Positions 1,972 through 43,605 of a stretch of 43,605 bases of DNA are shown in pieces. The notes beneath the pieces were generated by a model. That model was given only the letters and a program-made list of their open reading frames with translations. It had not been told where the DNA came from and did no database searches. The stretch spans positions 1 to 43,605 of the forward strand of contig NZ_FRAY01000013.1 of the NCBI RefSeq assembly GCF_900142475.1, read 5' to 3'. Every line of letters begins with the position of its first letter. Position 1 is the stretch's first letter. Position numbers and translations under genes: made by a program. The stretch is from Fibrobacter sp. UWH4 (GTDB taxonomy: Bacteria > Fibrobacterota > Fibrobacteria > Fibrobacterales > Fibrobacteraceae).

Positions 1972-2037
1972 TGTTTTTTCCTTTTGATTTAGCCCGTCAA
2001 CAGTATATGCACGGGCCGGGTTAAAAAATACGCACTA

Positions 2038-2066
2038 AATATAGCTAAATGAATTCATTCGTATCC
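2038..2066 (-). promoter_or_regulatory. Probable pfp promoter and leader hairpin
   Basis: On the minus strand a TATATT -10 box (2038-2043) lies 17 bases from a poor -35 (GGATAC, 2061-2066). The spacer contains the palindrome AATGAATTCATT (2048-2059). Between this site and the ATG there is an inverted repeat GCCCGT / ACGGGC (1992-2016) that would form a leader hairpin. Assignment rests on the -10 box only. Confidence 0.4.
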
Positions 2067-2132
2067 AAAATAAGAAAAAAAAGTTTTCAAAATGGCTAAA
2101 AAAACTAATTTTACGCAACTTGGTTTGGAAAT

Positions 2133-9850: not shown

Positions 9851-11010
9851 AAGTCCTGATTCTGGCAAATAAATCAACCGGACTGTACAAGTTCCGTGGA
9901 GAACTTCTCGAAGCGTTGCTCGCAAATAAGCATGAAGTCCTTTTATCTGTTCCGAATGGCGATTTTATCGATGAAATGCAACAGATGGGTTGCCATTTCA
10001 TAGAAACCGAAATCTCTCGCCATGGCACGAACCCGCTCACGGACCTTGCCTTAACCAAGAAATATTGCGCAATCATCAAGTCCGTAAAGCCCGATATCGT
10101 ATTCACCTATACCATCAAGCCTAATGTCTATGGGGGCATAGCCTGCCAGTTGTGCAAGGTTCCGTATGTCGCCAATGTGACCGGCCTCGGAACAGCCGTC
10201 GAGAATGGCGGAATCCTTCAGAAAATTACCTTGGCTCTCTATAGAACCGGATTGAGAAAGGCGAAACGTGTGTTCTTCCAGAACCAGGCGAACCAGGATT
10301 TTATGCTCAGGCATAAAGTCGTGAGAGGGGCGTATTCGTTGCTTCCCGGCAGTGGCGTAAACCTTGAACGCTTTGCCCCGCTCCCGTATCCCGATGAAAC
10401 CGACGGAATCCATTTCGTTTTCATCAGCCGCATTATGCGTGAAAAAGGCATAGAACAGTATTTGGAAGCTGCAAAACACTTCAAGGTCGCTGAGCCTGCC
10501 GAAGTGCCAGACGCTCGTCATCCTGAGCGGACCCTGGAGCCGCAGGCGATAGGGGGAGTCGAAAGATCTAAACTACATTTCCACATCTGCGGTTTCTGCG
10601 AGCCCGAATACAAGGGCAAACTGGATGAATACATCAAAAAAGGCATTGTAATCTATCACGGCATGGTCCGTGATGTCCGCGAAATTCATAAGATTTCGCA
10701 TTGCACCATCCACCCGAGTTTTTACCCGGAAGGCCTTAGCAATGTACTTTTGGAAAGCTGTGCCAGTGCCCGCCCTATCATCACTACGGACCGTAGCGGC
10801 TGTCGCGAAGTGGTAGATGATGGCGTGAACGGCTATATCGTGAAACAGCGCGATAGCGAAGACCTTATCCAGAAAATCGAGAAGTTCCTTATCTTAACGC
10901 ACGAACAGAAAATGCGGATGGGACTTGCTGGCAGGGCGAAAGTGGAAAAGGAATTTGACCGCAAGATTGTCGTGGATGCGTATATGAAAGAAATGGAGGC
11001 TACGAAATGA
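9847..11010 (+). CDS. Glycosyltransferase family 4 (PglA-like), with in-frame repeat insertion
   Basis: A 387-aa GT-B glycosyltransferase. The N-terminal half (MKVLILANKSTGLYKFRG, then TYTIKPNVYGGIA) resembles PglA, which adds the second sugar to undecaprenyl-linked bacillosamine. The C-terminal donor-binding motif is PSFYPEGLSNVLLES (290-304), with the family's E-x7-E. It overlaps the GNAT stop and the next start by ATGA, so translation is coupled. Residues 214-242 or so are not family-like: this stretch is encoded by a REP-like repeat (10487-10569) inserted between AAKHFK and HFHICGF without breaking the frame. Confidence 0.9.
   Translation: MKVLILANKSTGLYKFRGELLEALLANKHEVLLSVPNGDFIDEMQQMGCHFIETEISRHGTNPLTDLALTKKYCAIIKSVKPDIVFTYTIKPNVYGGIACQLCKVPYVANVTGLGTAVENGGILQKITLALYRTGLRKAKRVFFQNQANQDFMLRHKVVRGAYSLLPGSGVNLERFAPLPYPDETDGIHFVFISRIMREKGIEQYLEAAKHFKVAEPAEVPDARHPERTLEPQAIGGVERSKLHFHICGFCEPEYKGKLDEYIKKGIVIYHGMVRDVREIHKISHCTIHPSFYPEGLSNVLLESCASARPIITTDRSGCREVVDDGVNGYIVKQRDSEDLIQKIEKFLILTHEQKMRMGLAGRAKVEKEFDRKIVVDAYMKEMEATK
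10487..10569. repeat. REP-like element inside the glycosyltransferase gene
   Basis: Contains CGCTGAGCCTGCCGAAGTG, then GTCATCCTGAGCGG, then CTGGAGCC and GCGATAGGG, and ends GTCGAAAGATCT. All are pieces of the dispersed intergenic repeats in this window. It keeps the reading frame and adds roughly 27-29 residues. Confidence 0.75.
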
Positions 11011-12104
11011 TTCGTATTCTCCATGTTTTAGGCGGCTTGGACAGAGGCGGTGCGGAAACGATGGTAATGAACCTGTATCGGGCCATCGATAAAACCAAAG
11101 TTCAGTTTGTTTTCATCACGCATACGAATCACCGTCAGGCTTATACGGAAGAAATCGAAAAACTTGGTGGAAAAATTTATTATTTTCCCAAATTTAAAGG
11201 AATCAATTATTTCCAATTAAAAGGCATCTGGAAAAATTTCTTCAAGGATCATCCTGAGTACAAAATACTGCATTCGCATGTCCGCAGTTATGCATCGCTT
11301 TATTTGCCCATTGCTAAAAAGGCTGGGCTAAAAACGATTATTCATAGCCATAGTACCTCTAATGGAAAAGGCTTGTCTTCTTTCGTTAAACAGATGATGC
11401 AGTTCCCACTGCGTTACCAGGCGGACTATTTCTTTGGATGCTCCAAAGAAGCTGGAGAATGGCTGTTTGGAAAGAAAGTTGTGGAATCGTCTAAATATCA
11501 TATTCTGAAAAATGCGATTGATACTGAAAAATATACGTTCAACGAAGAATCTCGTGCACAATATCGTGAAAAATTGAGGTTGGGAAATAAATTGACTTAT
11601 GTTCATGTAGGTCGATTTCATCCATCAAAAAACCATACTTTTTTGTTGAATCTCTTTGCTGAAATTCATAGGCGTAATCCTAATACGGTACTTTTATTGG
11701 TTGGGGATGGACCTTTGCATTCAAGTATTCAAACACAAATAGAAGAACTTTGTCTGCAAGATGATGTTTTGCTGTTGGGAAGCCGAGATGATATTCCTGA
11801 AATATTGCATGCTGCAGACTGTTTCTTGTTCCCCTCTTTGTGGGAAGGCTTCGGTATGGTAGCTGTTGAAGCTCAGGCAACCGGATTGCCTTGTATTTGT
11901 AGCGATATGGTTCCTAGTTCTGTTAAAGTAACTGATTTCTGCTATTTTATTTCTACAGATGATTTGCTTGCTTGGGTAGATATGTCTATGCAAAATACAA
12001 GATATGCCTTGTCGATGCAAAATGAAGAAAATGTGAATGGGATTGAATCTTTTGATATAAAAAAATCTGCTGCCGAATTACAATCTTTTTATTTGAACGT
12101 TTAG
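11007..12104 (+). CDS. Glycosyltransferase family 4 (EpsF-like)
   Basis: A 365-aa GT-B glycosyltransferase. The start MIRILHVLGGLDRGGAETMV is the typical acceptor-side motif of this group, followed by HSHVRSYASLYLPIAKKAG. The donor domain has YVHVGRFHPSKNH and FLFPSLWEGFGMVAVEAQ, the E-x7-E element. It would add one sugar from a nucleotide donor to the lipid-linked glycan at the inner face of the membrane. It is coupled to the upstream gene by an ATGA overlap. From about 11160 on, base composition turns AT-rich. Confidence 0.92.
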   Translation: MIRILHVLGGLDRGGAETMVMNLYRAIDKTKVQFVFITHTNHRQAYTEEIEKLGGKIYYFPKFKGINYFQLKGIWKNFFKDHPEYKILHSHVRSYASLYLPIAKKAGLKTIIHSHSTSNGKGLSSFVKQMMQFPLRYQADYFFGCSKEAGEWLFGKKVVESSKYHILKNAIDTEKYTFNEESRAQYREKLRLGNKLTYVHVGRFHPSKNHTFLLNLFAEIHRRNPNTVLLLVGDGPLHSSIQTQIEELCLQDDVLLLGSRDDIPEILHAADCFLFPSLWEGFGMVAVEAQATGLPCICSDMVPSSVKVTDFCYFISTDDLLAWVDMSMQNTRYALSMQNEENVNGIESFDIKKSAAELQSFYLNV

Positions 12105-12111
12105 GTAAAAT

Positions 12112-12972
12112 ATGTCCAATGTAGCTTGTATTATTGTTAATTATAATGATTCCAAAAGGACTTTGGACCTTTCTAAACGAATTTGCAAATATTCTTCAAT
12201 AAATCAAGTTGTTGTTGTTGAGAATAATTCTACTGATGATTCTTTGAATTATTTAGCATCTTTTGGACATCCCAAATATCATGTAGTTAAGTCATCAAGG
12301 AATGGTGGGTACGGTTATGGGAATAATTTGGGGGCTAAAAAAGCGAAAGAATTGGGTGCGAAATATATCCTGATCGCAAATCCAGATGTGAATTTCAATG
12401 ATGAAAGTGTTTCACATATGCTCCATGTGATGAAAGATCATCCAATGTGTGCTATTGTTGGAGCCAGGGAAGTTAAACTTGGTACATATGCATGGCGCTA
12501 TACATCTGCTTTAGATGATGTCCTTTCTGCAAGTGTTTTTTTGAATAAAATGTTGAAAAAAAGGTATTATAATAAAGAATTCTTTTGTGGAAAAGATTGT
12601 GTAGAAGTTGATATAATACCGGGTAGTCTACTTCTTGTGGATCTTGAAAAGTTTTTTGAAGTAGGTGGTTATGATGAATCTATTTTTTTGTATGAAGAAG
12701 AAAAAGTTCTTTATCGTCGTTTTTGTGAAAAGTATGTAACTATTGTTGATTTACAGGCTGAATACGAGCATCATCATGTAGAAAGTCATTCATATTCTGT
12801 GAAATCTGCTTTGGTTGGAAAAAAACGACTTTTAAACAGTAAATATTATTTCTTGAAGAATTACAGAAAGATTTCCCCACTTGCGTTATGCGCGTCCAAA
12901 TTATTTTTTAGATTGACTATGCTTGAAATGCTTGTATGGATTTTAGTACGCAACATTGTGAGGCCCAAATGA
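12112..12972 (+). CDS. Glycosyltransferase family 2 (rhamnosyltransferase-like)
   Basis: A 286-aa GT-A glycosyltransferase. The N-terminus VACIIVNYNDSKRTLDL, then VVVENNSTDDS and SSRNGGYGYGNNLGA, are classic for the WbbL/rhamnosyl group. IANPDV takes the place of the metal-binding DxD motif, and EVDIIPGSLLLVD marks the acceptor region. Two hydrophobic segments at the C-terminus suggest membrane attachment. It starts 7 bases after the previous stop with AGG upstream, and its stop overlaps the next start by ATGA. Codon use is AT-rich, like its neighbours. Confidence 0.9.
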   Translation: MSNVACIIVNYNDSKRTLDLSKRICKYSSINQVVVVENNSTDDSLNYLASFGHPKYHVVKSSRNGGYGYGNNLGAKKAKELGAKYILIANPDVNFNDESVSHMLHVMKDHPMCAIVGAREVKLGTYAWRYTSALDDVLSASVFLNKMLKKRYYNKEFFCGKDCVEVDIIPGSLLLVDLEKFFEVGGYDESIFLYEEEKVLYRRFCEKYVTIVDLQAEYEHHHVESHSYSVKSALVGKKRLLNSKYYFLKNYRKISPLALCASKLFFRLTMLEMLVWILVRNIVRPK

Positions 12973-13868
12973 AGTTTCTGATTTTGTATGAATGTGCTTC
13001 AACAGACTGGACTCTTTTGGAATGGAGACGAAATGATATAGATGCTCATATCATATTTCGTCCGGTGTCAAAATTTTTTAGAATGATTCGGAGATTTTGG
13101 ATAAGAAGCAATATTCCTTTTCAACATTTTTGGTATTCGAAAAAATGGAAAAAATCTGTTGCCGAGGCTGATGTTGTTGTTGTTCATATGTCGAAATTGG
13201 TGGCTTCGCTTCCATATTACATAAATAAGCTGAATCCTAAAGCGAATGTTGTTGCTTGGTATTGGAATAGCGTTAATATATCATTAGAACCATCTTTGAT
13301 TAAAGGAAAATGTTCAATATGGTCCTTTGATCCTGCTGATTGCGCAAAATATGGAATGAAATTTAACCATCAGTATTATTTTAAAAGTTTGATTCAAAAG
13401 AATTCTAACATAGATTGTGATGTGTATTATCACGGAGGAGATTCTGGAAGAGGAAAATCTTTAATTGAACTTTATAATTTGATTGTTGCAAAGAATTTGA
13501 AATGCAAGATGAAAATTGTTCATCCGATATATGACCAAATTCCAGAAGAAATGAAAAGTCCAATAATTCCTTATGCGCAAATAGCTGAAAATTCTTCAAA
13601 AAGTCGATGCTTACTTGAAGTTCTTCGCCCATACCAGTCGGGTCCCACATTGCGTTTGATGGAAGCTCTTTTTAACAAGAAAAAGATTATAACAACAAAT
13701 AAGTCTATAAAAAATGAACCGTTTTACCGCGAGGACAACATGTTCATCATTGGCGAACGGTCTGTTGATGAATTGTATGTTTTTGTCAAATCGGATTATG
13801 TGAATCCTGGTGATGAGTTCATAGATGAATATGATGTAAAAAATTGGTTGAATAATTTTGTAGAATAA
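12969..13868 (+). CDS. Putative glycosyltransferase / polysaccharide biosynthesis protein
   Basis: A 299-aa protein that starts at the ATG overlapping the previous stop (ATGA at 12969); the frame is open a further 33 bases upstream. No firm family is recognised. The C-terminal half has a GT-B-like donor segment: SRCLLEVLRPYQSGPTLRLM, then EALFNKKKIITTNKSI, which resembles Bacteroidota LPS or capsule transferases. ADVVVVHMSKLVASLPYY and VAWYWNSVN in the first half would be acceptor-domain strands. No signal peptide or membrane segment is visible. Position in a tight row of glycosyltransferase genes supports a sugar-transfer role. Confidence 0.65.
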   Translation: MKFLILYECASTDWTLLEWRRNDIDAHIIFRPVSKFFRMIRRFWIRSNIPFQHFWYSKKWKKSVAEADVVVVHMSKLVASLPYYINKLNPKANVVAWYWNSVNISLEPSLIKGKCSIWSFDPADCAKYGMKFNHQYYFKSLIQKNSNIDCDVYYHGGDSGRGKSLIELYNLIVAKNLKCKMKIVHPIYDQIPEEMKSPIIPYAQIAENSSKSRCLLEVLRPYQSGPTLRLMEALFNKKKIITTNKSIKNEPFYREDNMFIIGERSVDELYVFVKSDYVNPGDEFIDEYDVKNWLNNFVE

Positions 13869-13882
13869 GCTTCGATTTAAAT

Positions 13883-15122
13883 ATGCTTTTGTTTTGTATT
13901 GCGGGAGTTTCTTTTTTACTGCTACTTGAATTTCTGATTTACAGAAATTTAAAGACTCCTGTATTCTTATACGGTGTTGTTTGGTTACTAGTTTATTTAT
14001 CGTTGTTTGTGAAGAAAGATGAGTTTATTCTGAATAATTCCTTGCTCCCGTCTTTTCTGATTGCTACGTTGCTATTTGCGTTTGGATTTAGACTAGTTAA
14101 TTTTTATAGGGAAGAACCATTTAATCATCTCGATTATAATGTCTATTGGAATCCTGTGTTTAAAAAATTTATTTTTTTTTGCAGTCTATATTTTCTCATT
14201 TGTTGCTTTTACAAAATGCTATAGTGTCATCTCTATTAGTGAATTCTCTGCATGGCAGGCTGTTCGACAAGGTATGTCGGAAGATGAGCTGTTTCCTGCA
14301 TGGATTGGTATAATCTTTAACTTTGTCAGGATTATCTTTTTTATATCATTTGCCATCTATTTGTGTACACCAACGATAAAAAATAGATTTGAATTTCTTT
14401 TGATTCTTCCCCCAGTTCTTTTGACGTGCCTTTTTTCTGCGCGGGGGGATTGGTTTATGATTATATTGACTCTTTTGTATTTGATGTTTTTTATTAGAAG
14501 TTTTTCTAATAAAAGAATTGTTACGATAGGTTTAGTCTCGTTTATTGTCTTTCTTTTAATATTTATTTTTTCATCTCTTGATAAGTTTAGGTATGCCTAT
14601 GCCGAGATGACAGAACTTGAAAAATTGGAAATGCTTTTTAGCTCGTATTTTATAAATCCGGTAATAAATTTTTTCTACTGGTTTGCAGAAAGTCCTGAAT
14701 ATGCTGATGGCAAGTATACATTCCGATTTTTTTGGGCGATAAAATCAGCTCTTTTTGGAAATGCGGATGTTGTCCCGACCGTTTTGCCTTTTAGAACTTA
14801 TAATGGTGTCCAGTCAAATGTGTATACCTCTCTTAATTGGTGTGCTCGTGATTTTGGACTTTGGTGGGCTCTTGTAGTACAATTCTTTTTGGGCTTATTT
14901 TATGGACTTTTGTATAAACGTTTTATGAAAAATGATACATTTCATCTGGCAACAATCGTTATTCTTTGTTTGTTGATAGATCCGATTGTGAATCAGTTTT
15001 TTGATGATAAGTTTTTTTCGATCATGTCCCATTGGGTTCAGCGGGTTATATTTGTTCTTGTTTTGATAAAGACTTGCGTTCTTATAGAATCTACAAATCA
15101 AAAAAATGCATCCAATCTTTAA
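13883..15122 (+). pseudogene. Oligosaccharide repeat-unit polymerase (Wzy-like), frameshifted in a T9 run
   Basis: Two overlapping frames together make one hydrophobic protein of about 410 residues. The first (13883-14224) covers the first three or so membrane segments and ends early. The second continues as FAVYIFSFVAFTKCYSVIS to 15122, with a Wzy-like FSARGDW loop and NWCARDFGLWWALVVQFFLG. The join falls in a run of nine T (14172-14180). Eight T would give one continuous frame. Wzy polymerases link glycan repeat units at the outer face of the inner membrane, so the broken form would be inactive unless the ribosome or polymerase slips. A sequencing error in the homopolymer is also possible. 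Confidence 0.8.
14172..14180 (+). repeat. Homopolymer of nine T within wzy
   Basis: One T more than the in-frame length. Tracts like this are common sites of slipped-strand phase variation and also of sequencing error. Confidence 0.8.
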
Positions 15123-16518
15123 AAATATATCATTTACGTTTTTTTCGAATATAGTCTGTACTATTATTTCGGTACTGGTTATTTTCTTTGTTCCTAAAAA
15201 TATTGGTGTTGAAAATTATGGCTATTTCCAGTTATATTTATTCTATATCAATTATACAGGATTCTTGCATTTTGGTTGGGCTGATGGAGTGTACTTGCGA
15301 TATGGAGGGATGTATTATAAAGATTTGAACAAACCTCTGTTTGCAACGCAATTCAGAATGTTTGTTATAATGGAATTGATTTTTGCAACCGTTTTGTGTT
15401 GTTGGGCGAATTTCTTTGTAGAATCTGCGGAAAAACAGATTGTCTATTCTTTGATCGGCGTTTCAATGCTTTTTGCTTTGCCTAAGACATTTTTGCAGTA
15501 TGTTTTGCAGGGGACAAATAGAATTAAGGAATATGCAACTCTTATTATGATTGAAAGGGTTGTGTATGGTTCTTTGGCTTTGTTGATTGTGTTTGCTAGA
15601 AAAGATAGTTTTGCACTAATTATCGGAACTGATTTAGTCGGTAAATTTGTTGCACTCATTTATGCGTTTTATCATTGTCGTGATATTGTTTTGGGGCATA
15701 TGGGCTCTCTGAAGGGAGCGCTTAAAGATGCTTTGACAAATATTAGTGTCGGTGTTAAGTTGATGCTTGCTAATGTGGCTTGTCTATTGATTTTAGGTGT
15801 AGTGCGTTGGTCAATTGAGCGTGAATGGAATGTGAGTGTTTTTGGTAAGATTTCTTTGACTTTATCCATATCGAATTTAATGATGATTTTTATTCGGTCT
15901 GTGTCGATGGTACTTTTGCCAACACTGCGAAGGACTGATTCTTCTAGATATGCTTCTATATATTCAAATTTGAAAATAGGTTTTTTGGTCCCAATGTTTG
16001 GAGGACTACTATTGTATTATCCTTTGAACGTTTTTTTACGTTATTGGTTGCCTGCATATGCAGATTGTTTGGTTTATATGGCGGTGCTTTTCCCATTATG
16101 TCTTTATGAAGGAAAATTAAGTTTGCTGGTTGAAACTTATTTGAAAACGATGCGGATGGAGAAAGTGCTGCTGATGTCAAATCTGGCAACATTGATTGTC
16201 AGTTGCTTGTTGACAATCATCTTTGTTTTTGTTCTTGAAAATTTGACATTGGCTGTGTTGGGAATTCTTTTGATTTTTGCATTTAGGACTTTTTTGGGAG
16301 AATTTTTACTTTCTCGAAAAATGCCGATGCCTTTTTTTAAAGATGGAATTTTGGAATGTCTTCTTACGGCACTATTTGTGATAAACGCATGGTTCCTAGA
16401 TGATTTGATCGGGATGCTTGTTTATGGGCTTTTTTACCTGTTGTATGTACTTTTTTATAAAAAAGAACTCCTTGAACTATTTAGAATGCTCAAATTGAAT
16501 GTGAAAAAACATGCATGA
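15106..16518 (+). CDS. Polysaccharide flippase (Wzx-like, MOP superfamily)
   Basis: A 470-aa protein made almost wholly of membrane helices (about 12). It begins with FKNISFTFFSNIVCTIISVL and has NIGVENYGYFQLYLFYINYTG, the usual first-loop pattern of PST/Wzx transporters (a G-x-x-x-Y-G motif). It would flip the undecaprenyl-linked repeat unit across the inner membrane before polymerisation. The start lies 17 bases inside the end of wzy, so the two are probably translationally coupled. Strongly AT-rich. Confidence 0.88.
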   Translation: MHPIFKNISFTFFSNIVCTIISVLVIFFVPKNIGVENYGYFQLYLFYINYTGFLHFGWADGVYLRYGGMYYKDLNKPLFATQFRMFVIMELIFATVLCCWANFFVESAEKQIVYSLIGVSMLFALPKTFLQYVLQGTNRIKEYATLIMIERVVYGSLALLIVFARKDSFALIIGTDLVGKFVALIYAFYHCRDIVLGHMGSLKGALKDALTNISVGVKLMLANVACLLILGVVRWSIEREWNVSVFGKISLTLSISNLMMIFIRSVSMVLLPTLRRTDSSRYASIYSNLKIGFLVPMFGGLLLYYPLNVFLRYWLPAYADCLVYMAVLFPLCLYEGKLSLLVETYLKTMRMEKVLLMSNLATLIVSCLLTIIFVFVLENLTLAVLGILLIFAFRTFLGEFLLSRKMPMPFFKDGILECLLTALFVINAWFLDDLIGMLVYGLFYLLYVLFYKKELLELFRMLKLNVKKHA

Positions 16519-16563
16519 ATAAAAAAAATGCAGAAAATTGTATATTTTGAATGAAGGTTTGTT

Positions 16564-18702
16564 ATGATTATAGAAAAAGAAACCAAATCTAATTCGAGTA
16601 ATTCGACCCATATTTCTGGTAGCGCGATTACCATGATGGAGTTCTTGATGCTCCTATGGAGGAAAAAATTCATAATCCTCCTTTTTGTTGTGTTGGCAAC
16701 GATTTTTGGGGCTTGTTATGCAATGTGGGTTAGGCCTTCGTTTACAAGTGATGTCCTTTTGCAGGTAAATACGAAGGGTGCTAGTAGCAAATCAACCAAA
16801 GCTTTAGGTGAAATGGGTGCCGTCCTTGATTTGGCAAGCCCTGCTGATGCGGAAATTGAATTGATAAAGAGCCGGATGGTACTCAATTATGTGGTTTCTG
16901 TTGAACACCTTCATCTAAAAGCGATTCCTATTGGCTTTTGGGATCGTTTTACTCATAGTGAAGGCCGTCTAGATTTAGATTCTTTGATTATTCCAGAAAA
17001 AGCCCGTAATGGAAAGTGGACTGCTATCGTGAAAAGCGATGAATCGTATTCCGTAGTTGCTCCTGATGGAAAAGAAGTGCTTAATGGCAAGGTTGGCCAT
17101 GTTTATAAGACGAAGTATGCAGAAGACTCCTTGACGATACGCGTTAGTTATATGGATGCTAAGGTCGGACAACGATTTAAGCTTCTTCAGGGATCTTTGT
17201 TGAAAACAGAACAAATCTTGATGCGGTCCTTAAATGTCAATGAACGTGGTAAACAAACTGGTATTATTTCTGTTCGTTATAGCCATCGCTATCCTGATCG
17301 CGCGGCGTCCATTTTGAATACCATTGCCAAGACCTATTTGCGCCAGAATGTGGAAATGCGTAGTGCCGAAGCGGAAAAAACTTTGGAATTTCTTGAAGGT
17401 CAATTACCGGCTGTAAAGGCGAAATTGGATAGTGCCGAAAAGATTTTGGCTGATTACCGTTACAGCATAGGCTCTGTGGATATGACGGGGGAGACTAAGG
17501 CTCATTTGGATAAAGAAGGCCAGTTGCAGCGCCAGATTATGCAGTTGGAACAGGAACGTCAGGCTGCATTACGGTTATTCAAGGAAGAACATCCTAATGT
17601 GCAGACTATAGTAAAACAACAGAGCAAGTTGCGTGCCGAATTGGCTGCGCTCAAGAAGAATGCTGAAAAAATGCCGTTGACCCAGCAAGAAGTGAAACGT
17701 CTGCAAGAAGAAGTTGCTGTCAACAATGAAGTCTATACCAATATGCTGAATAATATTCAGCAGTTGCGTGTGGTTCGTGCTGGTGAGGTGGGTAATGTTC
17801 GTATTGTAGATTTTGCTCAGATTGAACAGAGCCAAAGTAAACCAAATAAGTCTAGAATAGTGTTGGTTTCTGCGGTTGCTGGTTTTATGTTAGGAGTATT
17901 GTTTGTCTTGTTAACGTATCTGTTACGGAACGGAGTCAAGAGCGCTTCCGAAATCGAGCGTGAAACGGGTCTCAGCGTGTTTGCGAAAATTCCGCAATCG
18001 AGGAACAGACTTCTACGTGGGCATAGGCATTTGCACCATGGCGCTCCGTTTGTTTTGCAGAATATTGATAACGGTGTTTGCGAAGCTTTCCGAGCGTTGC
18101 AGACGGCCTTGACTTTCTTGATGCCGAATCCCGAACACTGTGTCTTGCTTGTGATGGGCCTTAACCCGGGGGCGGGCAAGAGTTTTGTTTCGCTTAATTT
18201 GGCGGCGACTATGGCCACCAGCGGCAAAAAGGTCCTGCTGATTGACGCCGATATGCGCCGTGGCGTTATTCATAGCGGCTCTAAGTTTGGCTTGGCCGAT
18301 GTGTTGCTGGGCTTGGCAACATTGGATACGGCTGTTGTTTCTAAACACGACGATAATTTGTTTGTGATGAACGCGGGCAAGACAAAGCTTGCGGCCTGTG
18401 AACTGCTGCGTGGTGACGCCATGGACAAGCTGTTTAAAGAGGCTCGCCAAAAGTTCGATATGGTGATTGTGGATACTCCGCCCCTGAACTTGGTGACGGA
18501 TGCCGAACTGATTTGTCCGCTGGTCGATTATTCACTGTTTGTGTTGCATTATGGTCGTCATTCCATAGAAGAAATCAAGGAAACGATTGACAGGGTCAAA
18601 CGCTACTCGGATAAGCCTGCCGCAATCGTGATGAACCATTGCGAGCAAGAACCTGGCCGTTATGGCTACGGATATTACGGAAAGGGCTATAAAAGCAAGT
18701 GA
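16564..18702 (+). CDS. Polysaccharide co-polymerase / tyrosine autokinase (Wzc-like)
   Basis: A 712-aa BY-kinase with fused Wzz and kinase parts. A first membrane segment (about 36-56) is followed by a periplasmic Wzz region with a coiled coil (about 270-410), a GNVR-type segment and a second membrane helix (about 432-454). The cytoplasmic kinase has Walker A GLNPGAGKS (about 532-540), Walker A' LLIDADMRR (about 559-567) and VDTPP, and ends in a Tyr-rich tail (RYGYGYYGKGY) that would be autophosphorylated. These proteins set chain length and drive export of Wzy-dependent polymers. GAAGG precedes the ATG. No Wzb phosphatase or Wza channel gene is in the window. GC content recovers inside this gene. 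Confidence 0.93.
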   Translation: MIIEKETKSNSSNSTHISGSAITMMEFLMLLWRKKFIILLFVVLATIFGACYAMWVRPSFTSDVLLQVNTKGASSKSTKALGEMGAVLDLASPADAEIELIKSRMVLNYVVSVEHLHLKAIPIGFWDRFTHSEGRLDLDSLIIPEKARNGKWTAIVKSDESYSVVAPDGKEVLNGKVGHVYKTKYAEDSLTIRVSYMDAKVGQRFKLLQGSLLKTEQILMRSLNVNERGKQTGIISVRYSHRYPDRAASILNTIAKTYLRQNVEMRSAEAEKTLEFLEGQLPAVKAKLDSAEKILADYRYSIGSVDMTGETKAHLDKEGQLQRQIMQLEQERQAALRLFKEEHPNVQTIVKQQSKLRAELAALKKNAEKMPLTQQEVKRLQEEVAVNNEVYTNMLNNIQQLRVVRAGEVGNVRIVDFAQIEQSQSKPNKSRIVLVSAVAGFMLGVLFVLLTYLLRNGVKSASEIERETGLSVFAKIPQSRNRLLRGHRHLHHGAPFVLQNIDNGVCEAFRALQTALTFLMPNPEHCVLLVMGLNPGAGKSFVSLNLAATMATSGKKVLLIDADMRRGVIHSGSKFGLADVLLGLATLDTAVVSKHDDNLFVMNAGKTKLAACELLRGDAMDKLFKEARQKFDMVIVDTPPLNLVTDAELICPLVDYSLFVLHYGRHSIEEIKETIDRVKRYSDKPAAIVMNHCEQEPGRYGYGYYGKGYKSK

Positions 18703-25825: not shown

Positions 25826-25925
25826 CAGAATGACATTTCACCCTGGGGGTCAGAATGACGTTTCACCCTGGGGGTCAGAATGACGTTTCACCCTGGGGGT
25901 CAGAATGGCATGTCACCCTGGAGGC
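25826..25925. repeat. Four tandem 25-bp repeats related to the dispersed REP-like family
   Basis: Units begin CAGAATGAC and contain TTTCACCCTGGGGG. Unit 1 differs from units 2 and 3 at one base; unit 4 has several changes and runs into GAGGCCGTAGGCCGATAGGG. There are no spacers between units. Confidence 0.85.
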
Positions 25926-37705: not shown

Positions 37706-38066
37706 TTTGATCTCCTAATATCTTAAAATAATGTCACAATGATAGAAATTTTGTGATAAATTAAGATGAAAATTGTCTGTTTTTATGTTATTTGCAAAAA
37801 AGTGTGATTTCGTATACAATCTTTTTGGATGAGGGGTATCCCGCCGCCAGTCATCCTGCTCATCCCTCCCTCAGTCATCCTGTATGTCCTCCCCTCTGTC
37901 ATCCTGCATGTTCCCCCTCAGTCATCCTGCACGTCCCACCCTCTGTCATCCTGCACGTAGTGCGGGATCCAGAACTTAATGTAGACTTTTTATTTGTTTA
38001 TTATATGTAAAATATGTAAATATATCTTAAATTTTGCTTAATTGTGGACTTTTAATAAAAATTACA
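37706..38066. other. Intergenic region between the small barrel gene and the GH43 gene
   Basis: Holds the divergent promoters and the 24-bp tandem array described separately. No coding frame with a ribosome site is seen. Confidence 0.5.
37851..37953. repeat. Five-copy tandem array with 24-bp period around TCATCCTG
   Basis: TCATCCTG occurs at 37851, 37875, 37899, 37922 and 37946. Linkers are C/T-rich and similar. The last unit continues into GTAGTGCGGGATCC, as in the dispersed REP-like elements. Confidence 0.85.
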
Positions 38067-38121: not shown

Positions 38122-40125
38122 ATGTGCTTGGAATTTCGTGGTGCGTTGGGCGTTGCGATGGCTTTGGGTGCCACCGCAACCTTTGCGGCCGATTGGTACG
38201 CGAAGGACAATTTGCAACCCGGTCACGACCCGAGCATGGTACGGTTCGAGGACGGCTACGCCCTCATGAGCACGAACAACAATCTGCAGCTCTGGACAAG
38301 CGAAGATGCTTACACGTGGAAGGACCATCGTTCTACAGTGAGCGGGGTTCCGCAGTGGGCCTACACCTACGCGCCCAAGACCGAGGGCATCTGGGCTCCG
38401 GATATTTTCTACATGAACGGCGAGTACCGCGTTTACTACTGCGTGTCGGAATTCGGCGTGCGCAATTCGGCCATCGGCTATACCGCAACGACCTCGATTG
38501 TACCGGGTAGCAATGGCTACGGCTGGAAGGACCATGGCCATGTTTTCCACACCAAAGAAGGAACGGATAAGTACAATGCCATCGATGCCGACGTTGTGCG
38601 TGACACCGAGGGCAATTACTGGATGGCTTTCGGTTCCTTCGGGCTCGGCATTCAGCTGATTAAGTTAGATGCAACGACAGGCTACCAGGCGAGCGACGAC
38701 AAGACGGTCTACAACATTGCACGCCGTACCAGCAGCGCGAGCGGCGGAGCCGAAGAAGGCCCGAGCCTGATTGAGCATGGCGGGCAGTATTTCTTGTTTA
38801 CCGCATGGGACAAGTGCTGCCAGCAGGGCGCAAACATCGAGCAGACAACGTACAAGACGGCTTACGGCCGTGCAGACAAAGTAACTGGGCCGTACAAAGA
38901 CCGCGCGGGTTACACCATGGCGAACGGCGGCGGCACGATTCTGTTGGAACGCTACGGGCGCTATGTGGGCCCGGGCGGCGGCGAGGCCTTCCAGGACCTG
39001 AACCGCGTGCGATTTGTGCATCATTATTACGATAACGCAGGCGACAAGTTCAACCATATCCACATTCGTGATGTCGTCTTCACCGAGGACAACTGGGCTG
39101 AGATGGGACAGCCCTTCCTCGGGCGTTATTTGAGTGCCGAAGTCGAGCACGGCGTGCTGACCCGCGCCGTTTCGGGCGACCTCGCGATTACCCGCAGCAA
39201 TACGGCCTCGAACGGGGAATACCTCGCTTACGTGAATACCGAGGGTTCCAAGATTCGTCTGCCGATGAACATTATGCAGGCGGGCGATTACCTGCTGCGT
39301 TACCGCTACGCGAACGGTGGCGATGCGGCTGCAGAACACAAGGTGACGGTGAATGGCAAGTCGCAGACGGTGACGCTTCCGCCGACGGGTTCCTGGGGCA
39401 CTTTCCCCGAAAATTCTGTGGTGATGGTGCCTGCGAAACTCAAACGCGGCGGCAACTTCATCGAACTGGAACCTTCGCCGAACGGAAATTTTGCGGAACT
39501 CGACCGCATCGACTTCTTGCGCATTATCCGCGATACGATTCCGACGAACGGCTTTGACAACGGCATCCGCGTGCGTCTCACGAAGGACGACGAGTTCGCC
39601 ATCAAGGACGGCGGTTACGCGATTTTCGAGAACGTTGTGCTTGATTCGCTCAAGGATATCGGCAATGTTTTCCTTCAGGTGAAAAATGCTTCGTCGGGTA
39701 AGATCGTGATTCGCGACGGCAAGAAGGACGGGACTGCGGTCTTCACATGTGACCTGTCAAATAGATCTCTCATGGGTGGCGGCTGGTCTGCGGCGAAATG
39801 CTCGGGCGACATGGGCCTGCGCGGCATCAAGGACCTGTACCTGACGGCATCGGGAATTTCCGGCGAGGCGATTCTCGGGAATCTCATCTTTGAGCCGATG
39901 CAGGTTGTCTGCAACCAAGCACCGTGTGGTGACCCGGTTTCCAGCTCCAGCGACCCTTCGACCAGCTCAGGAACCGCTGAACCGCAGTCTAGTTCCAGCA
40001 GCGGAACGACCGCGATTGCCCCGCGTGCTGTACGCCTCGTTTCTCCGGCACCCGCCCGCAAGGCCTATCGCGACCTCAAGGGCCGAAGCTTTGAAAAGCA
40101 GATCCCGTACCGGGTGATGTTCTAA
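38122..40125 (+). CDS. Secreted GH43 endo-1,5-alpha-L-arabinanase with carbohydrate-binding-like domains
   Basis: A 667-aa secreted enzyme. The signal peptide ends at TFAA (about 23). The five-bladed GH43 domain (about 28-340) has the general base Asp36 in GHDPSMV, EGIWAPDIFY (88-97), Asp155 in NAIDADVV and the acid Glu212 in EEGPSLI; YYCVSEFGVRNSAIG is typical of arabinanases. A CBM6-like module follows (about 350-500), then another beta domain (about 515-620), a Ser/Thr linker (SSSSDPSTSSG) and a short basic tail with YRDLKGRSFEKQIPYRVMF. It would cut the arabinan side chains of pectin. AGGGAG precedes the ATG. Confidence 0.92.
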   Translation: MCLEFRGALGVAMALGATATFAADWYAKDNLQPGHDPSMVRFEDGYALMSTNNNLQLWTSEDAYTWKDHRSTVSGVPQWAYTYAPKTEGIWAPDIFYMNGEYRVYYCVSEFGVRNSAIGYTATTSIVPGSNGYGWKDHGHVFHTKEGTDKYNAIDADVVRDTEGNYWMAFGSFGLGIQLIKLDATTGYQASDDKTVYNIARRTSSASGGAEEGPSLIEHGGQYFLFTAWDKCCQQGANIEQTTYKTAYGRADKVTGPYKDRAGYTMANGGGTILLERYGRYVGPGGGEAFQDLNRVRFVHHYYDNAGDKFNHIHIRDVVFTEDNWAEMGQPFLGRYLSAEVEHGVLTRAVSGDLAITRSNTASNGEYLAYVNTEGSKIRLPMNIMQAGDYLLRYRYANGGDAAAEHKVTVNGKSQTVTLPPTGSWGTFPENSVVMVPAKLKRGGNFIELEPSPNGNFAELDRIDFLRIIRDTIPTNGFDNGIRVRLTKDDEFAIKDGGYAIFENVVLDSLKDIGNVFLQVKNASSGKIVIRDGKKDGTAVFTCDLSNRSLMGGGWSAAKCSGDMGLRGIKDLYLTASGISGEAILGNLIFEPMQVVCNQAPCGDPVSSSSDPSTSSGTAEPQSSSSSGTTAIAPRAVRLVSPAPARKAYRDLKGRSFEKQIPYRVMF

Positions 40126-41359: not shown

Positions 41360-41396
41360 AGTTTAAACTCGGCTCATAAAGAGCCTCTATAAGACT
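41360..41396. repeat. 37-bp array repeat, copy 1
   Basis: Starts AGTTTAAACTCG and contains GCTCATAAAGAGC, then CTATAAGACT. Left end of the array. In the minus strand it reads SLIEALYEP, then SLN and stop (stop at 41358-41360). Confidence 0.85.
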
Positions 41397-41416
41397 TGAT
41401 AAAATTTGACATGGGA

Positions 41417-41445
41417 TTGCAATTCCTTGGGTGAAATGGTATATT
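41417..41445 (+). promoter_or_regulatory. Promoter of array gene 1
   Basis: TTGCAA (41417-41422), 17-base spacer, TATATT (41440-41445) preceded by GG. A TTGACA stands 11 bases upstream but is too far to be the -35. Nearly identical to the next two. Confidence 0.7.
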
Positions 41446-41462
41446 AGAGAGCGAGGGTAATC

Positions 41463-41690
41463 ATGATTACGGTTGACAAAGAAACAAGAAAGATTGAGTT
41501 CTTTAAGATAGACGATAGTGATAAAATCTGGTGGGTTGATTATATTGGTCAAATTGGAATATCCGCTGTTTCTTTTGACAAGAAAAAAATTCTTTTTGTT
41601 TTTGAAGACTATCCCAAGAATTTTACCAAAGAGGAAAAAGCCTTATTCGATAAGGAGAATCCTTATTGGAAAAAATTACTTGGCGGTTAG
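41463..41690 (+). CDS. Small array protein 1 (75 aa, paralogue family)
   Basis: First of three tandem paralogues. It starts MITVDKETRKIEFFK, has DKIWWVDYIGQIG and SFDKKKILFVFEDYPKNFT, and ends LFDKENPYWKKLLGG. Soluble, no signal peptide, mixed alpha/beta, with many Lys, Asp and aromatic residues. The core (SFDKK, then DYP and FDKENPYW) is seen in small uncharacterised gut-bacterial proteins; no function is known to me. GAGGG precedes the ATG. It ends 31 bases before repeat copy 2. Confidence 0.8.
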   Translation: MITVDKETRKIEFFKIDDSDKIWWVDYIGQIGISAVSFDKKKILFVFEDYPKNFTKEEKALFDKENPYWKKLLGG

Positions 41691-41721
41691 TACAAAGCGT
41701 TATAGCCCCTGAGTGTTTATG

Positions 41722-41758
41722 AGTTTTACCTTCGCTCATAAAGAGCCCCTATAAGACT
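41722..41758. repeat. 37-bp array repeat, copy 2
   Basis: Starts AGTTTTACCTTC and contains GCTCATAAAGAGC, then CCCTATAAGACT. In the minus strand it reads SLIGALYERR and stop. Confidence 0.85.
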
Positions 41759-41769
41759 TTGACATGGGA

Positions 41770-41798
41770 TTGCAATTCCTTGGGTGAAATGGTATATT
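41770..41798 (+). promoter_or_regulatory. Promoter of array gene 2
   Basis: TTGCAA (41770-41775), 17-base spacer, TATATT (41793-41798). The spacer is identical to that of gene 1. Confidence 0.7.
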
Positions 41799-41815
41799 AG
41801 AGAGCGAGGTTAATC

Positions 41816-42049
41816 ATGATCACGGTTGACAAAGAGACGAGAAAAATTGAGTTTTATAAGAAGCATGAAGGTGATAAAATCTGGCATGTTGCTTATATTG
41901 GTCAGCGAGGTATTCATGCTGTTTCATTCGATAAGAAAAAGGTTTTGTTTCTTTTTGGCGATTATCCGAAGAATTTTACCCAAGAGGAAAGAACTTTATT
42001 TGATAAAGAAAATCCCTATTGGGCAAATTATTTTAGTGACGGAAACTAA
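41816..42049 (+). CDS. Small array protein 2 (77 aa, paralogue family)
   Basis: Second paralogue. It shares MITVDKETRKIEFYK, DKIWHVAYIGQRG, SFDKKKVLFLFGDYPKNFT and FDKENPYWANYF with copies 1 and 3; changes are spread over the protein, so these are old duplicates and not a recent copying error. Own promoter and GAGG ribosome site. A weak hairpin (CTCT / AGAG at 42093-42109) followed by T-rich sequence may end its transcript before repeat copy 3. Confidence 0.8.
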   Translation: MITVDKETRKIEFYKKHEGDKIWHVAYIGQRGIHAVSFDKKKVLFLFGDYPKNFTQEERTLFDKENPYWANYFSDGN

Positions 42050-42113
42050 TTATTTCATCTCTCCTTTGGCGTGTTGAAACATCCCAATAATTCTCTGAAT
42101 TTTTGAGAGCCTT

Positions 42114-42150
42114 TCTTTTACCTCCGCTCATAGAGAGCCCTTATAAGACT
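42114..42150. repeat. 37-bp array repeat, copy 3
   Basis: Starts TCTTTTACCTCC and contains GCTCATAGAGAGC, then CTTATAAGACT. In the minus strand it reads SLIRALYERR and stop. The most diverged copy. Confidence 0.8.
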
Positions 42151-42161
42151 TTGACATGGGG

Positions 42162-42190
42162 TTGCTTTTCCTTGGGTAAAATGGTATATT
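42162..42190 (+). promoter_or_regulatory. Promoter of array gene 3
   Basis: TTGCTT (42162-42167), 17-base spacer, TATATT (42185-42190). The spacer differs from genes 1 and 2 by a single base. Confidence 0.65.
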
Positions 42191-42207
42191 AGAGAGCGAG
42201 GTTAATC

Positions 42208-42441
42208 ATGATCACGGTTGACAAAGAAACGAGCAAATTTGAATTTTACAAGGAAAATGAGGATGATAAAGTCTGGTGGGTCGATTATTTTGATCAAACA
42301 GGTCTTCATGCAGTTTCTTTTGACAAGAAAACGATTTTATTTCTATTCAAAGATTATCCTCATAATTTCACTCCAGAGCAGAAAGTTTTATTCGATAAAG
42401 AGAATCCTTATTGGGCAAATTTTTTCCGCAAAAGGAAATAA
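42208..42441 (+). CDS. Small array protein 3 (77 aa, paralogue family)
   Basis: Third paralogue: MITVDKETSKFEFYK, DKVWWVDYFDQTG, SFDKKTILFLFKDYPHNFT and FDKENPYWANFF, then a basic end RKRK. Same promoter and ribosome-site layout as its two sisters, and followed by a good terminator. The three encode related but clearly different proteins, which suits variants kept for different partners. Confidence 0.8.
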   Translation: MITVDKETSKFEFYKENEDDKVWWVDYFDQTGLHAVSFDKKTILFLFKDYPHNFTPEQKVLFDKENPYWANFFRKRK

Positions 42442-42488
42442 TCTTTGCGATCATTACTTACCCCCTTGTGTGTTCAAATACCCTAACA

Positions 42489-42509
42489 ACTCCCTGAATT
42501 TCGGGGAGT
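42489..42509 (+). terminator. Intrinsic terminator of array gene 3
   Basis: Arms ACTCCC and GGGAGT followed by a T-run (42511-42520). It lies just before repeat copy 4. Confidence 0.75.
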
Positions 42510-42522
42510 CTTTTATTTTTTC

Positions 42523-42559
42523 AGTTTAAACTTTGCTCGTAAAGAGCCCCTATAAGATT
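42523..42559. repeat. 37-bp array repeat, copy 4
   Basis: Starts AGTTTAAACTTT and contains GCTCGTAAAGAGC, then CCCTATAAGATT. In the minus strand it reads NLIGALYEQ, then SLN and stop. Confidence 0.85.
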
Positions 42560-42573
42560 AATAGAATATTCTC

Positions 42574-42783
42574 TCAGTGCTTTATCTTGAAATAATCCAG
42601 CAGGGCCTTGTAGTTGTCCTGGGCTGTGAGGCATCGCCAAGGATATCCCAAAATTTGCCGGCATAGGCAAATTTCAGCCTTTCTTCGATCAAGAAATATC
42701 AAAAACTTGCCGATATCGACAAGTTTTTGTTTCGGAAACGCACAAAAGCCTCCTCTAGCCATCAATTTTCCAGCCCCCTCCAT
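42574..42783 (-). CDS. Doubtful small ORF, possibly a gene remnant
   Basis: A 69-codon frame ending YPWRCLTAQDNYKALLDYF, which looks protein-like, but its first half is read through two inverted repeats and no ribosome site fits its starts. It may be the remnant of a larger gene or chance. No family recognised. Confidence 0.2.
   Translation of the reverse strand: MEGAGKLMARGGFCAFPKQKLVDIGKFLIFLDRRKAEICLCRQILGYPWRCLTAQDNYKALLDYFKIKH
42651..42674. repeat. Inverted repeat in cassette 4
   Basis: Arms AAATTTGCC and GGCAAATTT around GGCATA. Confidence 0.7.
42701..42728. repeat. Inverted repeat in cassette 4, terminator-like
   Basis: Arms AAAAACTTG and CAAGTTTTT around a loop that includes the palindrome CGATATCG. 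Either strand ends in a U-run, so it could be a two-way terminator. Confidence 0.65.
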
Positions 42784-42802
42784 TTTTTTCTCAAAAATAA
42801 GG

Positions 42803-42808
42803 TATATT
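42803..42808 (+). promoter_or_regulatory. -10 box directly before the Cys-rich protein gene
   Basis: GGTATATT ends 7 bases before the ATG at 42816, so the transcript would begin at or next to the start codon (leaderless). The -35 region (CCATTT) is poor. Confidence 0.5.
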
Positions 42809-42815
42809 CGTGTCT

Positions 42816-43286
42816 ATGCGAAAGCTTATTAGAAAAATAACCTTGCTGTTAAGCTCCCTTTGTTGGTCTGATTGCGCACCCATCCTCTTAAGTTTTACAG
42901 CATTGCAACATATTGCCTGCGCTTACGGCACCGACGAACCTTGTGAAGAAAACTGCTACGATCCAGCTTTGGATTGTGTTCCAGAGATTAATTACGATGC
43001 CATGACAGGGAAAGACTATAGCGAATGCGAACAAGATATTTTAGACACGATAAAAGCACGGAGGCTCCGTAACATAAACGAATACGGCGTCTGCTTCAAG
43101 AGTCCCTGCAGTATAACTTATGAAGAGCAATGTCAAATTCGGGAGAATTGCCCTTTAGACCATATAAAGGCCGACTCCGCTTTATCGGGATATAGATGTC
43201 AAAACAGCGAATTTGTTTCTGTTGAAGAAGGCGAGAGGCGCCTAAAGCTTCTTAGTTTTACCTCGTCTCGTAAAGAGCCCCTATAA
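42816..43286 (+). CDS. Cys-rich secreted protein of cassette 4
   Basis: A 156-aa protein. The N-terminus (MRKLIRKITLLLSSLCW) leads into a long hydrophobic segment and looks like a signal peptide ending near ACAYG. The mature part has about nine Cys in a short acidic chain (CEENCYDPALDC, GVCFKSPC), so a disulfide-bonded secreted protein is likely. No family recognised. No ribosome site is visible and the -10 box adjoins the ATG. The last residues, SFTSSRKEPL, and the stop are read from repeat copy 5: the gene is closed by the repeat. Confidence 0.65.
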   Translation: MRKLIRKITLLLSSLCWSDCAPILLSFTALQHIACAYGTDEPCEENCYDPALDCVPEINYDAMTGKDYSECEQDILDTIKARRLRNINEYGVCFKSPCSITYEEQCQIRENCPLDHIKADSALSGYRCQNSEFVSVEEGERRLKLLSFTSSRKEPL

Positions 43287-43290
43287 GATC
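43254..43290. repeat. 37-bp array repeat, copy 5
   Basis: Starts AGTTTTACCTCG and contains TCTCGTAAAGAGC, then CCCTATAAGATC. It encodes the C-terminus of the Cys-rich protein on the plus strand and DLIGALYETR plus stop on the minus strand. Confidence 0.85.
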
Positions 43291-43353
43291 AGAATTTTGC
43301 AATTTTTGTCATCAATTTTAGACTTGATCATTCCTTTTCTCCGAAAAAAGAGG

Positions 43354-43359
43354 TATATT
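43354..43359 (+). promoter_or_regulatory. -10 box of the array RNA
   Basis: GGTATATT (box at 43354-43359) with a TTCCTT 17 bases upstream (43331-43336). Predicted start near 43366 coincides with the base of the RNA stem. Confidence 0.55.
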
Positions 43360-43365
43360 ACGAAT

Positions 43366-43474
43366 AAAGAACGCGCTGAGTTAGTGGAACGAGATTGGCC
43401 ACTTGGGTTACCTTGGACTTCGTGAGCCTTGAACCGTATGCAGGAGTTTGTCGCCCTGCCTCGCGTTCTTTTTT
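43366..43474 (+). ncRNA. Putative structured small RNA of cassette 5
   Basis: About 110 nt between a promoter and a U6 run. The ends pair perfectly over 10 bp (AAAGAACGCG at 43366-43375 with CGCGTTCTTT at 43462-43471), and the closing arm doubles as the terminator. Inside are three more possible stems: AGTGG/CCACT (43383-43403), GGTT/AACC (43406-43435) and GCAGG/CCTGC (43440-43459), so a multi-branched fold. There is no start codon with a ribosome site in the transcript. I do not recognise it as SRP RNA, 6S, tmRNA or a riboswitch. Confidence 0.6.
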
Positions 43475-43511
43475 AGTTTTATCCCCGCTCATAAAGAGCC
43501 CCTATAAGATT
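43475..43511. repeat. 37-bp array repeat, copy 6, at the 3' end of a gene
   Basis: Starts AGTTTTATCCCC and contains GCTCATAAAGAGC, then CCCTATAAGATT. On the minus strand this is the last 10 codons and stop of the gene that continues to the right. Confidence 0.85.
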
Positions 43512-43605
43512 GAAGGCGCCCACCGGCACGCCCCAGGCGAATCCTTCGAGGCCGTATTCCGTGCCGGTGAACTTTTCGAGCGCGATTCCTAAAGCACCGC
43601 CGCCC
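43479..43605 (-). CDS. C-terminus of an unidentified protein (partial)
   Basis: The last 41 codons of a minus-strand gene that begins outside the window. They read GGALGIALEKFTGTEYGLEG, then FAWGVPVGAFNLIGALYERG, then stop. Composition is GC-rich and Gly-rich, like the core genome and unlike the array. The chain looks membrane-associated, but no family can be named. Its final residues NLIGALYERG are encoded by repeat copy 6, making this gene the likely anchor of the array. Confidence 0.6.
   Translation of the reverse strand, partial: GGGALGIALEKFTGTEYGLEGFAWGVPVGAFNLIGALYERG

Follow-up and report, generated by a model that had tools for sequence, protein, structure and literature searches.

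Gene-sized spacers in repeat arrays of Fibrobacter, and a candidate role in DNA capture for an orphan type II-derived Cas1-Cas2

Results

A repeat array at the right end of the window

The stretch analysed here, called the window throughout, comprises 43,605 nucleotides from Fibrobacter sp. UWH4 (genome G000), a member of a genus of rumen bacteria, and its last position, 43605, is also the end of its contig (C13). Six real repeat copies, each 35 nt long, lie between 41361 and 43510 and are separated by inserts that we call spacers (Table 1). The exact repeat core has 14 matches in the 3.70-Mb genome and 0 for a reversed control, a pattern far above chance. With at most one mismatch the core occurs in 15 of 31 genomes, namely in 15 of the 19 from the window's genus and in none of the 12 outside it, and IMG/VR holds 0 exact matches; Rfam gave only matches far below gathering scores for the window array.

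Table 1. Positions and contents of the repeat copies and spacers at the right end of the window
Feature	Position	Strand	Length	Content
Repeat copy 1	41361..41395	+	35 nt	Oldest copy in the window
Spacer 1	41396..41722	+	327 bp	Promoter-like stretch and DUF7675 gene (ORF 41463-41690, +)
Repeat copy 2	41723..41757	+		
Spacer 2	41758..42114	+	357 bp	Paralogous small gene (ORF 41816-42049, +)
Repeat copy 3	42115..42149	+		
Spacer 3	42150..42523	+	374 bp	Third paralogous small gene (ORF 42208-42441, +)
Repeat copy 4	42524..42558	+		
Spacer 4	42559..43254	+	696 bp	ORF 42810-43286, 158 aa
Repeat copy 5	43255..43289	+		
Spacer 5	43290..43475	+	186 bp	5' end of a Phage_tail_S-type phage gene (by resemblance) and a divergent promoter-like stretch
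Repeat copy 6	43476..43510	+		Identical to the leader-abutting repeat at C3:96-130
murJ-derived spacer	43511..43605	-		First 95 bp; goes on in an unassembled piece, probably towards C3:1-95

Spacer 2 is 83.5% identical to spacer 1 over 267 bp, and the three spacers with paralogous genes look like unit duplications rather than separate captures. Their DUF7675 gene (Pfam match for one of the three) is also found, in the opposite orientation, in spacers of G051 and G006. The ORF of spacer 4 lacks a Pfam match, and its stop codon falls inside repeat copy 5. The element in spacer 5 recurs in both orientations in spacers of G066, G074 and G081; its part at 43350-43475, which adjoins the phage tail gene start, may be a small RNA with a promoter-like stretch of its own and a T-run, and has no Rfam match.

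An earlier note on this DNA had reported that all copies share a C-terminal frame on the minus strand, and this is so in all six: copies 1-3 read SLIEALYEPSLN, SLIGALYERR and SLIRALYERR, and copies 4-6 NLIGALYEQSLN, DLIGALYETR and NLIGALYERG, each followed by a stop. The plus-strand frame that it gave as ending in KEPL and a stop is found in five copies, while copy 3 reads REPL, so that only EPL and the stop are common to all. Since the copies are homologous, a frame shared among them is to be expected; the minus frame is open for only about 7 codons upstream of copy 5, and the consensus repeat has stop codons in five of the six frames.

The right-edge frame is a fragment of murJ

The frame that enters copy 6 reads GGGALGIALEKFTG...VPVGAF and then passes into the repeat. 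The window's last 95 bases are identical to the end of contig C15, and because those bases run on in C15 as MurJ (...VPVGAFIGFFALQ...), the frame in the window is a truncated murJ copy ending in the repeat. In the same way, the first 95 bases of contig C3 are identical to the start of C11. C15 codes for MurJ from about profile position 165 and C11 for its first ~98 residues (TIGR01695), with ~66 residues missing between the two parts; both matches, being partial, fall below the whole-protein cut-off, and matches to MurJ in the PDB were also found. The murJ gene itself thus lies elsewhere in the genome, and its parts on C15 and C11 continue without a repeat. In the window and in C3 the murJ bases run into repeats of one variant, identical at 35 of 35 positions. 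The simplest path, with the linking of contigs inferred, leads from C13 through a short unassembled piece to C3. On this path two identical repeats would enclose some 390 bp of murJ, and a leader would come after the right-hand repeat. The frame ending in NLIGALYERG is therefore not a gene end, and the earlier proposals that the repeat is the 3' end of a protein gene and that such a gene leaves the window at its right edge are not borne out: the anchor of the array is a leader with a putative promoter.

An orphan cas2-cas1 locus adjoins the same repeat and leader

On contig C1 of the window's genome this repeat is again arranged in an array, and directly next to it lie a conserved leader of ~85 bp and then cas2 and cas1. 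The Cas1 matches the type II model TIGR03639 at 276 bits (cut-off 120) and the Cas2 reaches 36.9 bits (cut-off 24.5), and alignment of Cas1 to solved Cas1 proteins shows that the conserved E/H/E positions, which we take to be the catalytic residues, are kept. Judged by a dN/dS of 0.040-0.085 in all seven comparisons with the gene of the window's genome (L031), the orphan cas1 is under purifying selection; for cas2 the values are 0.49 and 0.25, on few changes, with one comparison saturated. A search of 21 genomes for Cas9 gave no match in the window's genome and one above cut-off, in G003; nor was a second Cas1 found in the window's genome.

Among 80 genomes of the genus 25 have a Cas1 match, and in 13 it has the form seen here, at least 71% identical (G000, G063, G034, G066, G018, G074, G045, G081, G050, G051 and G060, together with G086 and G038, whose frames are broken by one stop and into two pieces, respectively). 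None of the 13 loci has a Cas9 among the ORFs up to 6.5 kb upstream of cas1, or over fewer bases where contigs end. Repeat and leader adjoin cas2 in 12 of the 13, and the remaining one, from G060, is on a contig that stops 95 nt beyond its last cas2 match. The distance from the repeat to the cas2 stop is exactly 60 bp in nine of the 11 loci measured and 59 in one, and the cas2 of G050 stops elsewhere than in the other loci. At least one complete spacer is present in 11 of the 12 loci, the spacer of G063 being cut by the contig start, and the ORFs surrounding the orphan Cas1 differ between genomes. Inspection of the leaders by eye revealed a putative sigma-70-like promoter (TTGCGA-17-TATATT) that faces the array and ends at the repeat.

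Repeats and leaders also occur in many genomes without an intact cas1. At the site orthologous to the C1 array, G003 and G004 have a single repeat (L049 10602-10637 and L050 9791-9826) that directly abuts the next GNAT-type gene, with leader and cas genes absent, and G014 retains the leader and a cas2 remnant. A second form of leader, with one repeat that is sometimes degenerate, was seen in L051, L054, L059 and L125, in L054 and L125 upstream of what is presumably a clpB-like gene. Upstream of cas1 itself, a repeat-like copy (L031 10164-10199) resembles a degenerate leader-repeat; the surrounding segment (L031 10155-10470, fold z -4.0) was considered as a tracrRNA, has no Rfam match, and is better explained as such a degenerate leader-repeat.

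Seven sister Cas1 loci of the genus, 38-46% identical to the orphan form, provide a contrast. Cas9 lies directly upstream in all seven (TIGR01865, 387-643 bits) and a regular array with a period of 66-78 nt accompanies six; no regular array was detected at the seventh, L138, where the contig starts near cas2. In a tree the 11 orphan and the seven Cas9-linked Cas1 sequences separate with support 98/97, L139 forming a long branch and the broken frames of G086 and G038 being left out. G063 and G018 carry both kinds. The Cas9 locus of G003 was considered as an ordinary owner of the repeats and set aside: its array, with a 66-nt period, has an unrelated repeat, and the locus has no related cas1.

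Spacer lengths and repeat identity

Of 65 intervals between repeats we dropped six: four measure 56-57 bp and adjoin a degenerate outer repeat at a GNAT gene, and the two others, of 681 bp, are enclosed by degenerate copies. This left 59. The arrays adjacent to cas genes (including L142, whose cas1 is damaged) contain 33 spacers of 188-3074 bp, with a median of 435, and the other arrays 26 spacers of 113-2844 bp, with a median of 645.5, whereas spacers of type II arrays are uniform at ~30 bp. In the cas-adjacent arrays 17 of 33 pairs of neighbouring repeats are identical, against none of 26 elsewhere and 0.7% of 2281 pairs formed between different arrays; since no neighbouring pair is identical away from cas genes, we regard those arrays as old or partly decayed. 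Two pairs of the window's genome that span contigs stand outside this count: the repeats flanking the murJ fragment are identical, and those flanking the C10/C18 spacer are one variant apart from one deleted base. The repeat can fold back on itself, with 88.5% of cells paired in the outer stem and 77% in the inner one over 58 distinct 35-nt copies, values that fall when the pattern is slid along the sequence; the structure was drawn from the consensus of the copies scored.

Arrays of close genomes differ at the leader end

Two pairs of genomes reveal how the arrays change. The single spacer of G018, 317 bp long, is present at 99.7% identity in G074 as the distal spacer, and G074 has four extra spacers between it and the leader; the outer flanks of the two arrays match at about 89% over 2.2 kb. 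Likewise, the 881-bp spacer of G038 is identical in G045, which has one further spacer of 363 bp at the leader. In both pairs the extra repeat-spacer units stand exactly at the leader end, which, as read from these alignments, is polarised growth. The idea in the earlier note that each insertion restores the end of a target gene survives in part, in that each insertion regenerates one copy of the repeat; no gene 3' end is restored. The comparison with strains lacking inserts that it had suggested does find relatives with fewer repeat-insert units at the same place, at an anchor that is no gene end.

Origin of the captured DNA

Nine spacers of the window's genome were tested against that genome (four were left out), and three of them have exact copies elsewhere in it. 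These are the leader-proximal spacers of three arrays, derived from a nudix gene, from murJ and from folE/ECF. The nudix spacer is an exact 243-bp piece of a host gene and lies within a 704-kb contig, while the other two span assembly gaps; the ends of the C10/C18 spacer correspond to an ECF-type gene at the end of C5 and to folE at the start of C15. The host source genes have no repeat at the source. No copies elsewhere in the genome were found for the other six, that is, the five complete spacers of the window and one spacer of C10. Among the nine spacers of G081, one matches an internal part of recB at 97%, one belongs to a dispersed repeat (the distal 280-bp spacer, L130 18266-18544, one of at least eight dispersed copies at 72-87%), two have a 140-bp segment in common, in inverted orientation, and the other five are without a copy in their own genome. 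The two that share a segment are perhaps the product of a composite capture, as the 461-bp spacer in L130 starts with a 140-bp inverted copy (98.6%) of the interior of the 1560-bp spacer. A G081 spacer contains an open frame (L130 16710-17240) matching the ADP-ribosyltransferase exoenzyme family PF03496.

Phages are a further source. The first 200 bp of an 889-bp spacer of C1 are 96.5% identical to IMGVR_UViG_3300012007_000058, and the 3074-bp spacer of G081 codes for Phage_Mu_F and Phage_tail_S proteins. Several spacers hold whole small genes in sense to the leader promoter, and a 592-bp spacer of C10 contains a whole lipoprotein-like gene whose 93%-identical homologue in G004 is free of repeats. 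One gene family and one phage segment were each found in both orientations. Most of 40 spacer-derived proteins have no match in Pfam, weak matches below the curated cut-off (IL7, CFAP91, STX6) being disregarded.

The leader-side flanks of four host fragments (L083, L084, L085 and L145) read TAAACAACGG, TGAAAATCGG, AATTCATCAT and ACGGCAAAGA, with A at position 6 in all; a PAM-like NNNNMAW is possible from these four, among which no convincing PAM was found. Capture from RNA is disfavoured by those spacers in which promoter-like stretches and the starts of divergent genes are present.

Discussion

A proposed mechanism and the alternatives

It is probable that the orphan, type II-derived Cas1-Cas2 inserts DNA of ~0.2-3 kb at the junction of leader and repeat, giving rise to promoter-headed arrays of cassettes. 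We infer that Cas1-Cas2 performs the insertion, acting from C1 on its own array and on arrays elsewhere in the genome. A fragment from the host chromosome or from a phage would enter between the leader and the 35-nt repeat closest to it, with duplication of that repeat at each insertion. Loss of Cas9 may have set spacer length free: without Cas9, self-derived spacers would be harmless and the fragment would not be trimmed to 30 bp. Alternatively, the orphan Cas1-Cas2 may itself accept long ends. As the putative leader promoter ends at the repeat, captured DNA is probably transcribed, and useful small genes could persist as cassettes.

With a type II (II-C-like) adaptation module the system shares a TIGR03639 Cas1, a Cas2, near-identical 35-nt partly palindromic repeats, a conserved leader next to cas2-cas1, growth at the leader end with duplication of the repeat, as judged by comparison of genomes, and some phage-derived spacers. 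It differs in having no Cas9 (in the window's genome), spacers of 0.2-3 kb of which some are self-derived, and more than one site per genome at which repeats and leaders are present. To our knowledge, the known Cas1-Cas2 complexes use short prespacers. In type II-A systems, according to Jakhanwal et al. (2021; PMC8034620), the HNH site of Cas9 trims prespacers to 30 bp; on that account the absence of Cas9 here would fit the lost length rule. In anatomy the locus agrees with CRISPR adaptation but for the spacer length and the missing effector, and for these two reasons we do not file it as a type II CRISPR-Cas system. A casposon has a Cas1-solo with a polymerase and terminal inverted repeats, and is a case in which a Cas1 homologue is proposed to insert long DNA; here a type II Cas1 is accompanied by Cas2, and what has been inserted is an array of varied captured fragments instead of a single mobile element.

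Integrons offer the closest likeness in product, with gene-sized cassettes behind a promoter and growth beside a fixed site, and one could imagine circular cassettes that each bring an attC-like repeat and are moved by a tyrosine recombinase into an attachment site in the leader. The leader promoter facing the array, the whole small genes in sense and the ability of the repeat to fold back would agree with this. An integron attC, one per cassette, has the consensus RYYYAAC ... GTTRRRY; by inspection the repeat consensus lacks that form, with GTT at its outer edge, and the repeats match the local array. In three arrays the newest insert is flanked on both sides by the local repeat variant, as expected if a resident repeat is duplicated, and the inserts include fragments of unmarked chromosomal genes as well as phage DNA, in no fixed orientation. 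With Cas1-Cas2 in place of IntI as the conserved neighbour, we hold an integron-like recombinase to be quite improbable. The earlier suggestion of integrative elements that restore the 3' end of a target gene meets similar obstacles. The frame common to all copies and the repeat retained in relatives with fewer units would speak for it; the sole candidate recombinase found is Cas1-Cas2, a Pfam scan of 40 spacer proteins detected no integrase, and the frame at the edge is internal to murJ, whose two parts run on without a repeat at the source. This explanation is hardly credible.

Decay of an ordinary CRISPR system, with loss of cas9 and with arrays that survive as relics after being scrambled by recombination and insertions, would account for the several relatives in which no more is left than cas2 remnants, a lone repeat or degenerate copies, and for the diverged repeats of arrays in trans. 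We think it improbable in view of the strong purifying selection on cas1, the identical repeats around sharply bounded long spacers (nine of them in G081), the 100% identity of fresh spacers to host genes and the differing leader-end content of close pairs. An assembly artefact or a mixture of strains that joined murJ to the array deserves mention, as C13, C3, C10 and C18 each break 95 nt from a repeat, at 95-mers that they share with other contigs; yet the nudix case lies well within one contig and the same architecture recurs in 12 assemblies, which makes an artefact very improbable.

Insertion by Cas1-Cas2 at the leader is best read, on the genomic comparisons, as CRISPR-like in mechanism and integron-like in product. 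With more reserve, we lean towards the view that an effector-free adaptation module has turned into a gene-capture system that yields transcribed cassettes, a second, independent solution to the task of integrons and, as part of the same view, a route for copying the cell's own gene fragments or whole genes into an expression site. Searches of the open-access PMC literature found neither CRISPR spacers of gene size nor arrays of this kind in Fibrobacter described before. Should the proposal hold, Cas1-Cas2 is able to insert DNA of ten to a hundred times the normal spacer length; this would matter for the question of what fixes spacer length and for applications in which Cas1-Cas2 records or inserts long DNA. 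The system would then also be a case of adaptive immunity turning into gene capture, and provide a natural test of adaptation after loss of the effector, in which self-DNA accumulates without harm.

Other features of the window

GH43-type genes stand on both outer sides of the C13-C3 array region, one in the window (38122-40125), assigned by Pfam, and one in L032 (~1800-3670), assigned by resemblance only; the pairing suggests a segmental duplication. At 11000-18700 of the window the GC content falls to 0.325-0.36 in a cluster with glycosyltransferases and a Wzz/Wzc-like protein, probably a surface polysaccharide locus. Short tandem repeats were also seen at 25826-25924 and 37844-37958 of the window, with 25-bp units and GTCATCCTG-type units.
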